A stretch of 36,506 nt of DNA from Desulfomonilia bacterium (GTDB lineage Bacteria > Desulfobacterota > Desulfomonilia > UBA1062), in the NCBI GenBank assembly GCA_036567785.1, contig DATCTV010000013.1, positions 1 through 36,506 of the forward strand, written 5' to 3'. The notes under the pieces are model-generated. The model saw only the letters and a program-made list of their open reading frames with translations, searched no databases and was not told the origin of the DNA. The translations under genes were made by a program, and so were the position numbers. Each line of letters starts with the position of its first letter. Within the stretch, counting starts at the first letter, position 1. This document shows positions 9,445-29,366 of this stretch, piece by piece.

Positions 9445-10272
9445 TCAGTTGGTGTTGCAGTACTCCGGCTCCAGTCTGCGCGCCAGCTTATAAAAGCATG
9501 CTGGACACCATCTATGGATTAAGATGGCAAGCCGCTCCGGAAATCCACCCACATAAATCAGGGGTGATTTTTTCTCAAGGCGTTTGACTACATGTTTTGC
9601 CATTTTATCCGGCGGCATGCCTTTAAGGCATGCTTCGGAATGCTCTCCGAAAATGTGCCCTTTGCCATTCAAACTGTTCACCGTAATATTGGTGCGGATA
9701 AACCCCGGGGTGATCATTGATACGGTGATGCCTTTCGGGCTTTCCGCGCGCAGGGCATCATAGAATCCATGCAGTCCATGTTTTGCCGCGGAATAGGCCG
9801 AACTGCATTTGTCGCTCAAGACCCCGTTTACGCTGCTTACGCAAACGATATGCCCCGTTCCCTTCTTTTCCATCAAAGGCAACACCTTAAGGGTTATGGC
9901 GATATTTCCGAAGAAATTAACTTCCATAACTTTTTGGTAAATCGATAATGGCGTGTTTCTCACCCAATCCTTGTAATCGATGCCTGCATTATTGATCAGA
10001 ACATCTATCCCGCCGCATCGGGCCATGACCTTGGCGACCTTTTCATCAACGGTATCGAACTGGGTAATATCAAGAGGGAGCACCATGGCGTTCTCCGGGT
10101 ACTTTAATTCACTTTTGACTTTATTCAAGACAGCTTCTCTTCTTGCAGACAAGACGACATAAGCGCCCCTGGCATTGTATTCTCTGGCCAAGGCCTCACC
10201 GATGCCCGAAGATGCACCCGTTATCCAGACGACTTTTTTATTCAGCATGACGTTTTTCTCCTCTACAGTCAT
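9445..10272 (-). CDS. Short-chain dehydrogenase/reductase (DHRS7-like)
   Basis: A 275-aa NAD(P)-dependent oxidoreductase of the classical SDR family. It has the cofactor motif TGASSGIGEALA, NNAG, catalytic Ser in CVSSVNG and the YSAAKHG (YxxxK) pair, followed by PGFIRTNI. The C-terminal 40 residues are hydrophobic and cysteine-containing, as in membrane-associated DHRS7-type SDRs. I placed the start at ATG 10272, which has AAGGAG at good spacing; an in-frame GTG at 10296 is less likely. It follows the histidine kinase by 55 bp and may be the last gene of the ArnT-regulator-kinase operon. The substrate is unknown. Confidence 0.85.
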   Translation of the reverse strand: MTVEEKNVMLNKKVVWITGASSGIGEALAREYNARGAYVVLSARREAVLNKVKSELKYPENAMVLPLDITQFDTVDEKVAKVMARCGGIDVLINNAGIDYKDWVRNTPLSIYQKVMEVNFFGNIAITLKVLPLMEKKGTGHIVCVSSVNGVLSDKCSSAYSAAKHGLHGFYDALRAESPKGITVSMITPGFIRTNITVNSLNGKGHIFGEHSEACLKGMPPDKMAKHVVKRLEKKSPLIYVGGFPERLAILIHRWCPACFYKLARRLEPEYCNTN

Positions 10273-27869: not shown

Positions 27870-28103
27870 AATATCACCGTAGTGTTTTTAGTTCTTATTA
27901 AAGTAAAATACCCGCCGATTTAAGTTTGAACAGGTTGATATTATGGCATTATATCTCTTTTCATTTGCTGTTAATTGAAGTACAATTTTAGAAAATATTA
28001 ACATGAACTAAGACCAAGTATAGAGCTTGATAAACAAGGTTTTATCAAAACAATAATAATCCATATTCATGTTTCGAGCGCTAAACCACATCAAGGGGCA
28101 TGG

Positions 28104-28304
28104 GTGCCTCATTTTACTGAAAGAGGGAAAATGGCGCTTAAAACTCTTCTCCAAGATGGCGAAGAGGGCCACAGATTTGACGTGAGACTTGACTCATTTT
28201 TTGATGAGCACGGGAATAAAGTACTGACATTGTATGATTTAACATCTCAAGGTTATGGCAATGTAAATCAAGATACAAATAAAGCTTATGCAACATTTTT
28301 TTAA
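28104..28304 (+). CDS. Small hypothetical cassette protein
   Basis: A 66-aa frame starting at GTG with AAGGGG upstream. It is acidic and soluble, with DVRLDSFFDEHGNKVLTLYD in the middle and no membrane segment. The open frame continues without a stop upstream to 28002 (reading KTIIIHIHVSSAKPHQGAW), so a longer original protein that lost its start is possible; an ATG at 28131 is a further option. It lies in the first cassette position of the integron relic, with no family I recognise. Confidence 0.4.
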   Translation: MPHFTERGKMALKTLLQDGEEGHRFDVRLDSFFDEHGNKVLTLYDLTSQGYGNVNQDTNKAYATFF

Positions 28305-28318
28305 GCAATCTATTTATC

Positions 28319-28498
28319 ATGGTTGAAGGCATTCTTGCTGAGATACGAGGGCTTGAATACGAAATTCCATTTGATTATTACACACGAGAGGTAAGAATTA
28401 CTTACGATAGCGAACATAGATTTGTTATCAATGATGAAAATGGAAATGTCCTCACGTTTTTGACAGATAAAATGTTAAAAACGTTTTCTTTTAATTAA
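28319..28498 (+). CDS. Small hypothetical cassette protein
   Basis: A 59-aa frame from ATG to TAA, 14 bp after the previous small gene. Sequence features are an N-terminal helix (GILAEIRGLEYEI), then alternating strands (REVRITYD, HRFVINDENGNVLTFL). It shares an acidic D/N-E-x-G-N-x-V-L turn with its neighbour, so the two may be related or form a pair. It ends right at the attC-like site, as last genes of integron cassettes do. There is no convincing Shine-Dalgarno and no recognised family. Confidence 0.4.
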   Translation: MVEGILAEIRGLEYEIPFDYYTREVRITYDSEHRFVINDENGNVLTFLTDKMLKTFSFN

Positions 28499-28556
28499 AC
28501 AATAACAAACAAATCCAGCCGACGGCTTACAGCCGTGGCTGATACGCATGTTGAGC
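28493..28556 (+). repeat. attC-like recombination site 1
   Basis: An imperfect hairpin AGCCGACGGCT (28517-28527)/AGCCGTGGCT (28531-28540), with one extrahelical G, is followed by the core GTTGAGC (28550-28556), which fits GTTRRRY. This is the layout of an integron attC site; crossover would be between G28550 and T28551. The opposite core is degenerate: ATTAAAC (28494-28500) has one mismatch to RYYYAAC. Confidence 0.6.
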
Positions 28557-28626
28557 ATCAATAGGATTGACTATACAACATCGATCATGTTATCGTAGCA
28601 CAAATAAGATCGATGGAGGTTTTGGC

Positions 28627-28833
28627 ATGCAAATGGTCACGGTGTCACCAAAATATCAAGTCGTTATACCTAAAACCGTCAGGGAGGCATTGAAGCTTCA
28701 ACCAGGCCAAAAAATGCAAATAGTTGAATATGCCGGACGCATTGAGCTTATTCCGGAACGCGACATCAAAGAACTTCGCGGGTTTCTCAAGGGTATCAAT
28801 ACAGAATTCAAACGGGAGAAAGACAGAGTATGA
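28627..28833 (+). CDS. vapB: VapB-type AbrB-fold antitoxin
   Basis: A 68-aa SpoVT/AbrB-like swapped-hairpin antitoxin. The N-terminal DNA-binding fold is TVSPKYQVVIPKTVREALKL (about 5-24), followed by GQKMQIVEYAGRIELIPE. The C-terminal tail (ELRGFLKGINTEF) is the part that should wrap the toxin. GGAGG lies 7 nt before ATG 28627. Its stop overlaps the toxin start by 4 bp (ATGA). VapB binds VapC, blocks its ribonuclease site and represses its own promoter, which should lie at 28557-28610 inside the cassette. The pair begins just after the attC-like core, as in toxin-antitoxin gene cassettes of chromosomal integrons. Confidence 0.9.
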   Translation: MQMVTVSPKYQVVIPKTVREALKLQPGQKMQIVEYAGRIELIPERDIKELRGFLKGINTEFKREKDRV

Positions 28834-29204
28834 ATATTGTAGATTCTTCAGGCTGGCTCGCATACTTTGCCGATGAGCCTAATGCCAAGCATTTCCTGCC
28901 CCCACTGAGCGATTCGGATTTGCTTATTGTTCCAGTTGTGACGATATACGAAGTTTTTAAAGTAATTTTGAGGGAGTCCAGTGATAATGAAGCATTACAG
29001 GCAGTCATTGCCATGCAGAAAGGAAAGGTAGTGGATCTAAACGCATCATTGGCAATATCGGCTTCAAGGTTAAGTTTGGAAAATCAATTACCAATGGCTG
29101 ACAGCATCATTCTCGCAACGGCGCAAGAATTCAAAGCAGTTATATGGACTCAAGATTCAGACTTTAAAAATATTCGCAATGTAAAATACTTTCCAAAAAA
29201 ATAA
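28830..29204 (+). CDS. vapC: VapC-type PIN-domain ribonuclease toxin
   Basis: A 124-aa PIN-domain nuclease. Conserved acidic residues are D5 (MNIVDSSGWLAYF), E41 (TIYEVFK), D91 (PMADSIILATA) and D109 (IWTQDSDFKNI), all in the expected positions. VapC toxins cut tRNA or rRNA when free of antitoxin. The gene overlaps vapB by 4 bp. Its stop codon is 1 bp from the R''-like box of the second attC-like site, so cassette end and gene end coincide. The pair probably stabilises the array or the element; that is an inference from other integrons. Confidence 0.92.
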   Translation: MNIVDSSGWLAYFADEPNAKHFLPPLSDSDLLIVPVVTIYEVFKVILRESSDNEALQAVIAMQKGKVVDLNASLAISASRLSLENQLPMADSIILATAQEFKAVIWTQDSDFKNIRNVKYFPKK

Positions 29205-29205
29205 T

Positions 29206-29260
29206 GCTCAACAAGGTTAATATAGCCGATCGCTACGCTCCGGCTGATTTTTTCGTTATC
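29206..29260 (+). repeat. attC-like recombination site 2
   Basis: It starts with GCTCAAC (29206-29212), a perfect RYYYAAC core and the exact complement of the start of the VapBC cassette. A stem AGCCG (29224-29228)/CGGCT (29241-29245) follows, and the 3' core is GTTATC, which departs from GTTRRRY. At about 55 bp it is short, as expected for an attC. The 3' core decay suggests that it no longer recombines well. Confidence 0.6.
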
Positions 29261-29366
29261 ATCTCCATAAAGGATCTTCATTTAAAGTCAGCTGAAAAAT
29301 ATAATTTGCCGCTGCTGATATGCACTGTTAGAGAATTTGTCAGATCAGATCCAGTTATCTTACAAA

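Follow-up and report, generated by a model that had tools for sequence, protein, structure and literature searches.

A VapBC toxin–antitoxin gene cassette between two attC sites in a Desulfomonilia genome with no detectable integron integrase

Toxin–antitoxin operons are carried both as ordinary chromosomal genes and as integron cassettes, and a vapBC pair on one Desulfomonilia contig raises the question of which of these it is and, if a cassette, what kind of element now holds it. The window analysed here is that entire contig of 36,506 bases, part of a draft genome of 3.96 Mb in 64 contigs that is 97% complete. The original prediction had read the locus as a VapBC gene cassette with exactly complementary ends, and had noted that toxin–antitoxin cassettes are known in large chromosomal integrons. 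The features on which the discussion below depends are the following.

28319..28498, plus strand: 59-aa open reading frame (ORF) of the preceding cassette (from sequence; its stop lies 1 bp before the upstream attC)
28500..28556, plus strand: upstream attC, with R'' CAATAAC at 28500-28506, hairpin arms at 28516-28541 and R' GTTGAGC at 28550-28556
28551..29255, plus strand: VapBC gene cassette, 705 bp (from sequence, attC models and the homologous cassette L011/L073, which has the same left junction, GTTGAGCATCAAT)
28567..28596, plus strand: likely cassette-borne promoter, TTGACT-18-TATCGT with extended TG (consensus match)
28627..28833, plus strand: antitoxin gene, 68 aa, MazE/AbrB fold, vapB-like (Pfam MazE_antitoxin, 39.6 bits; TIGR01439, 49.6 bits)
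28830..29204, plus strand: vapC toxin gene, 124 aa, PIN domain (Pfam PIN, 63.5 bits)
29206..29261, plus strand: the cassette's own, downstream attC, with R'' GCTCAAC at 29206-29212 and R' GTTATCA at 29255-29261

The first bases of an integron cassette are the TTRRRY of the site before it, and its last base is the G of its own R' box. By this rule the cassette spans 28551-29255, running from the left end TTGAGC up to and including the G of R' in the downstream attC (a G/TT cut in both R' boxes), which is exactly the span that had been predicted. The description of its left border needs adjusting: TTGAGC had been placed after a GTTGAGC core, and both strings are present, but TTGAGC (28551-28556) lies within the core itself (28550-28556) and there is no second copy. 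At the other end, the vapC stop codon TAA occupies 29202-29204 and the attC-like GCTCAAC begins 1 bp further on, as predicted. The left end TTGAGC is the exact complement of GCTCAA(C), the R'' box of the cassette's own attC.

How much weight this match can bear depends on the comparison. By our own estimate, the probability that random DNA holds a perfect complement of all seven bases no more than about 17 positions from the stop is near 1e-3, and across the homologous loci described below the complementarity is also beyond chance (P = 0.0016), so the view that such ends are hard to obtain by chance holds in this sense. However, the consensus common to real cores makes even ends shuffled among the homologous loci perfectly complementary in about 14% of cases, and the match at this single locus is thus only moderate evidence. 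The case is carried by the attC model and the homologues rather than by the window's own end match.

The hallmarks of an attC site are an R'' box (RYYYAAC) and an R' box (GTTRRRY) at its ends, with an imperfect hairpin between them. Both sites have this arrangement of boxes and hairpin, with the downstream R' (GTTATCA) and the upstream R'' (CAATAAC) departing from the consensus at some positions. The covariance-model search that had been proposed as a check found attC at both borders. Using model R1, trained on 14 attC-like sites flanking homologous vapBC loci elsewhere with the window excluded, we obtained 55.7 bits for the downstream site (29206-29261; E = 2.9e-12 in the window, 3e-10 genome-wide) and 25.6 bits for the upstream site (match 28502-28556; E = 1.5e-4 and 0.016 respectively). 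The two rank first and second both within the window and across the 3.96-Mb genome, and R1 gave no third match above 13.7 bits in the window. A partial attC-like match at that score (9539-9574; E = 0.17; hairpin CCACCC...GGGUGAUUUUUUC) is probably due to chance.

As a control on whether R1 recognizes attC or merely a private repeat, it was run on class 1 integron plasmids and on arrays beside IntI genes of relatives. It recovered the sites that follow aadA1, aadA2, cmlA1, qacL and further class 1 integron cassettes, as well as many sites in the IntI loci of relatives, among them two same-family genomes (G006, locus L161; G019, locus L165). In one relative (L171, G137:C1:863000-882500), a cassette array beside intI carries repeated long attC-like sites of one family and is interrupted by a cassette with a 60-bp attC of class 1 type after a putative class D beta-lactamase gene.

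Other detection methods gave a mixed picture. A narrower model, R2, built mainly from class 1 attC sites, ranked the upstream attC at the top with a weak score (14.9 bits, E = 0.084) and did not report the downstream one. Energy folding separated the upstream attC from its shuffles (z = -3.3 to -3.6) but did not do so for the downstream attC (z = -0.2 to 0.2). An Rfam search of the window returned no match, nor did the simple pattern AGCCG..CGGCTGA..GTTRRR, which demanded too rigid a spacing and core. Scanning by rule for R''/R' pairs that are complementary and accompanied by hairpins picked up neither window site: within an array, each attC takes its R'' and R' from different cassettes, so the two need not be complementary to each other. 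Two alignments (A2 and A3) were dropped as model input, as sites with longer hairpin loops were misaligned in them.

Upstream of the cassette the record is sparser. The 59-aa ORF of the preceding cassette has no Pfam match over the cut-off, and a search for that cassette's left end, expected near GTTATTG, yielded nothing beyond chance. A 99-aa open frame at 28005-28301, with no usual start codon before a GTG at 28104, is possibly a gene remnant; it matches nothing in Pfam and has no relative among 148 genomes. Relatives yielded no empty site. Homologues of the flanking methyltransferase are present in relatives, with the other window neighbours not adjoining them within the 1.5 kb examined.

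The genes themselves have sequence features expected of a VapBC system: a PIN-domain toxin with conserved acidic residues, and an upstream, overlapping antitoxin gene with a DNA-binding fold. The vapC start overlaps the antitoxin stop (ATGA), and a GGAGG lies ahead of the antitoxin gene at 28615-28619. Among 11 homologues, residues D5, E41, D109 and D111 of VapC are invariant and D91 nearly so. The name VapBC is appropriate for a PIN-domain VapC with its antitoxin, with the correction that the antitoxin is of the MazE/AbrB fold. VapC scores 25.1 bits against the NCBIfam equivalog NF047959 (cut-off 80), which is one narrow model and not definitive for all VapC, and a sequence search of solved structures found none resembling it. 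The promoter match is not by itself above the chance count; the promoter region is conserved in 76 homologous loci, and in 88 of 92 loci there are ATCGAT boxes within 60 nt upstream of the antitoxin ATG.

A search for the same cassette in other integrons had also been suggested, and homologous VapBC pairs were indeed found between attC sites in other genomes. VapC homologues of 65–90% identity come from genomes with the labels Syntrophaceae, Smithella, Desulfobacterales, Nitrospira, Ignavibacteriales, Chloroflexi, Planctomycetota and others; these labels are record titles, nearly all of metagenome-assembled genomes in which contigs may be misplaced. With the window included, 20 of 88 distinct loci have an attC found by R1 directly beside vapBC, although 14 of the flanking sites trained the model and are detected by construction; that these sites are attC-like in the first place is shown by the building of the model and by its control on class 1 and IntI-adjacent sites. 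The share flanked by attC is 7/11 at 85% or more identity to the window VapC and 2/32 below 75%. Several of the homologous vapBC pairs lie in arrays of four to seven attC sites, a Smithella locus (L069) having seven. Plasmid and viral-contig relatives reach at best about 54% identity, the plasmid ones being nearly all from Leptospira; on one L. interrogans plasmid (NZ_CP043889.1, locus L204) a 54%-identical VapBC pair sits amid other toxin–antitoxin genes.

The ends of these cassettes match as a family. We compared 19 distinct loci, including the window, that have GTT on the left and an AAC box on the right, shuffling the right ends among loci. Complementarity was perfect in seven, against a mean of 2.6 when shuffled (P = 0.0016), and end mismatches totalled 28 against 37.2 (P = 0.009). 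Four different cores occur among the perfect pairs (GAGC, GGGC, GTGC and GGCC), and the two ends therefore change together. Pairwise identity among cassette-borne homologues is 54–58% inside the G/TT junction and 30% outside it.

The VapC tree places the window protein in a supported eight-row clade in which seven rows are cassette-borne. Across the tree, copies in cassettes are interspersed with attC-free ones, with 12 changes of which at least eight are forced by supported branches, a lower-confidence result because R1 misses long-loop attC sites. We tentatively raise the possibility, which we consider rather doubtful, that a single vapBC lineage has moved into and out of cassette form on several occasions across phyla.

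Might the pair nonetheless be an ordinary chromosomal operon, flanked by hairpins (transcription terminators or other repeats) whose likeness to attC is accidental? The operon does occur outside recognizable cassettes, since 68 of the 88 homologous loci have no R1-found attC beside vapBC, and one terminator-like match overlaps the upstream site. Against this, the two borders are the genome's top two attC matches, homologous cassettes have matching ends and lie in multi-attC arrays, and L011/L073 shares the left junction; we consider a chance resemblance highly improbable. The best explanation on sequence grounds, drawing together both attC sites, the matching ends, both genes, the conserved promoter region and the homologous cassettes, is that the locus is very probably a complete integron gene cassette with a VapBC pair, in a two-attC array without integrase, i.e. 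a CALIN, the term for attC clusters lacking an integrase (PMC9668308, PMC12444791).

A large chromosomal integron, mentioned earlier as a known setting for such cassettes, is not seen here: the genome has no detectable IntI and the contig only two attC sites. The integron-integrase family model gave only Xer-like matches in the genome (84 bits or less; cut-off 265), and no IntI was found there at 1e-60, whereas IntI exceeds the cut-off in 53 of 148 relatives. A complete integron, which has an intI gene, is thus not seen in the assembly, while two close attC sites (28500-28556 and 29206-29261) with no intI found are what defines a CALIN (at least two such sites). As far as the assembly shows, the array is a minimal, two-site CALIN rather than a large integron. 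A real cassette could also be an outlying piece of a normal integron, its intI missing only through incomplete assembly: the draft is in 64 contigs at 97% completeness, contig C4 has an attC-like site 359 bases from its end, and 11 genomes of the same family have a strong IntI match. Yet no IntI-like gene exceeds the cut-off in the assembly, and both window sites lie 7–8 kb from the nearer end of the 36.5-kb contig among ordinary genes (methyltransferase, GNAT, TenA), so that either way IntI does not adjoin them. On balance we think an assembly gap unlikely, and retain the integrase-less array as our reading. The C4 site (G000:C4:359-415, minus strand; locus L190) is a third attC-like site of the same family, ACCTAACAAAATCAATACAGCCAATCGCTACGCT...TTTCGTTAGCA, at 18 bits. 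It lies about 10 bp past a 154-aa ORF and is followed by a 67-aa ORF on the same strand; a GTTAGTT near the start of the 154-aa ORF is one mismatch from the complement of the site's R''. This end of the contig may hold further cassettes.

How such a cassette would have arrived and persisted can be sketched from established knowledge of integrons and toxin–antitoxin systems, in which IntI integrates cassettes at G/TT, VapC RNases are held in check by their antitoxins, and loss of the pair is costly. An integron integrase, located elsewhere or since lost, would have joined the circular cassette at the G/TT of the preceding attC. In the circle, the R' box (the G from 29255 plus TTGAGC) would pair with R'' GCTCAAC on the folded strand to form the substrate. 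The cassette's own promoter may then express the antitoxin and vapC, with autoregulation through the putative ATCGAT operator boxes. VapC is a predicted PIN-domain RNase that the MazE/AbrB-type antitoxin would neutralize; a cell that lost the cassette would then be harmed, so that the cassette would stabilize itself together with its neighbours. With no integrase resident in the genome, it is now probably fixed, though one supplied in trans could move it.

Cassettes of this kind have been described before. VapC-AbrB/MazE/SpoVT cassettes are among the promoter-active integron cassettes of a human oral metagenome (PMC6557892; repeated in PMC8876359). By description, ours is like them in pairing a PIN toxin with an AbrB/MazE-type antitoxin as an integron cassette, and unlike them in belonging to a genome with relatives in the Deltaproteobacteria group and no integrase found; the window cassette thus adds another VapC-AbrB/MazE cassette to those already reported (PMC6557892). 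In the sedentary chromosomal integron of Vibrio cholerae, toxin–antitoxin cassettes are held to stabilize the array through toxic loss (PMC11023631). The likeness there is in having their own promoter (a likely one in our case), lying between attC sites and being expected to be toxic when lost, whereas Vibrio arrays are large and have intI (PMC11023631), and here there are two attC sites and no intI. What our array has in common with CALINs is a set of two or more attC sites with no integrase, here in a minimal form: two sites, one recognizable complete cassette and the end of another (PMC9668308, PMC12444791). Two-cassette CALINs without intI have been described in Xanthomonas (PMC12444791).

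Alone, the window cassette changes no accepted idea. It is a clear example of a toxin–antitoxin cassette whose intact ends persist although no integrase is detectable in the genome. The cassette family to which it belongs is present, judging from record titles, in several phyla. That family offers a natural set for asking whether toxin–antitoxin cassettes stabilize arrays, and how cassettes arise and decay. If repeated entry into and exit from cassette form is true, the family would let one watch both the making of cassettes and their decay into fixed operons.
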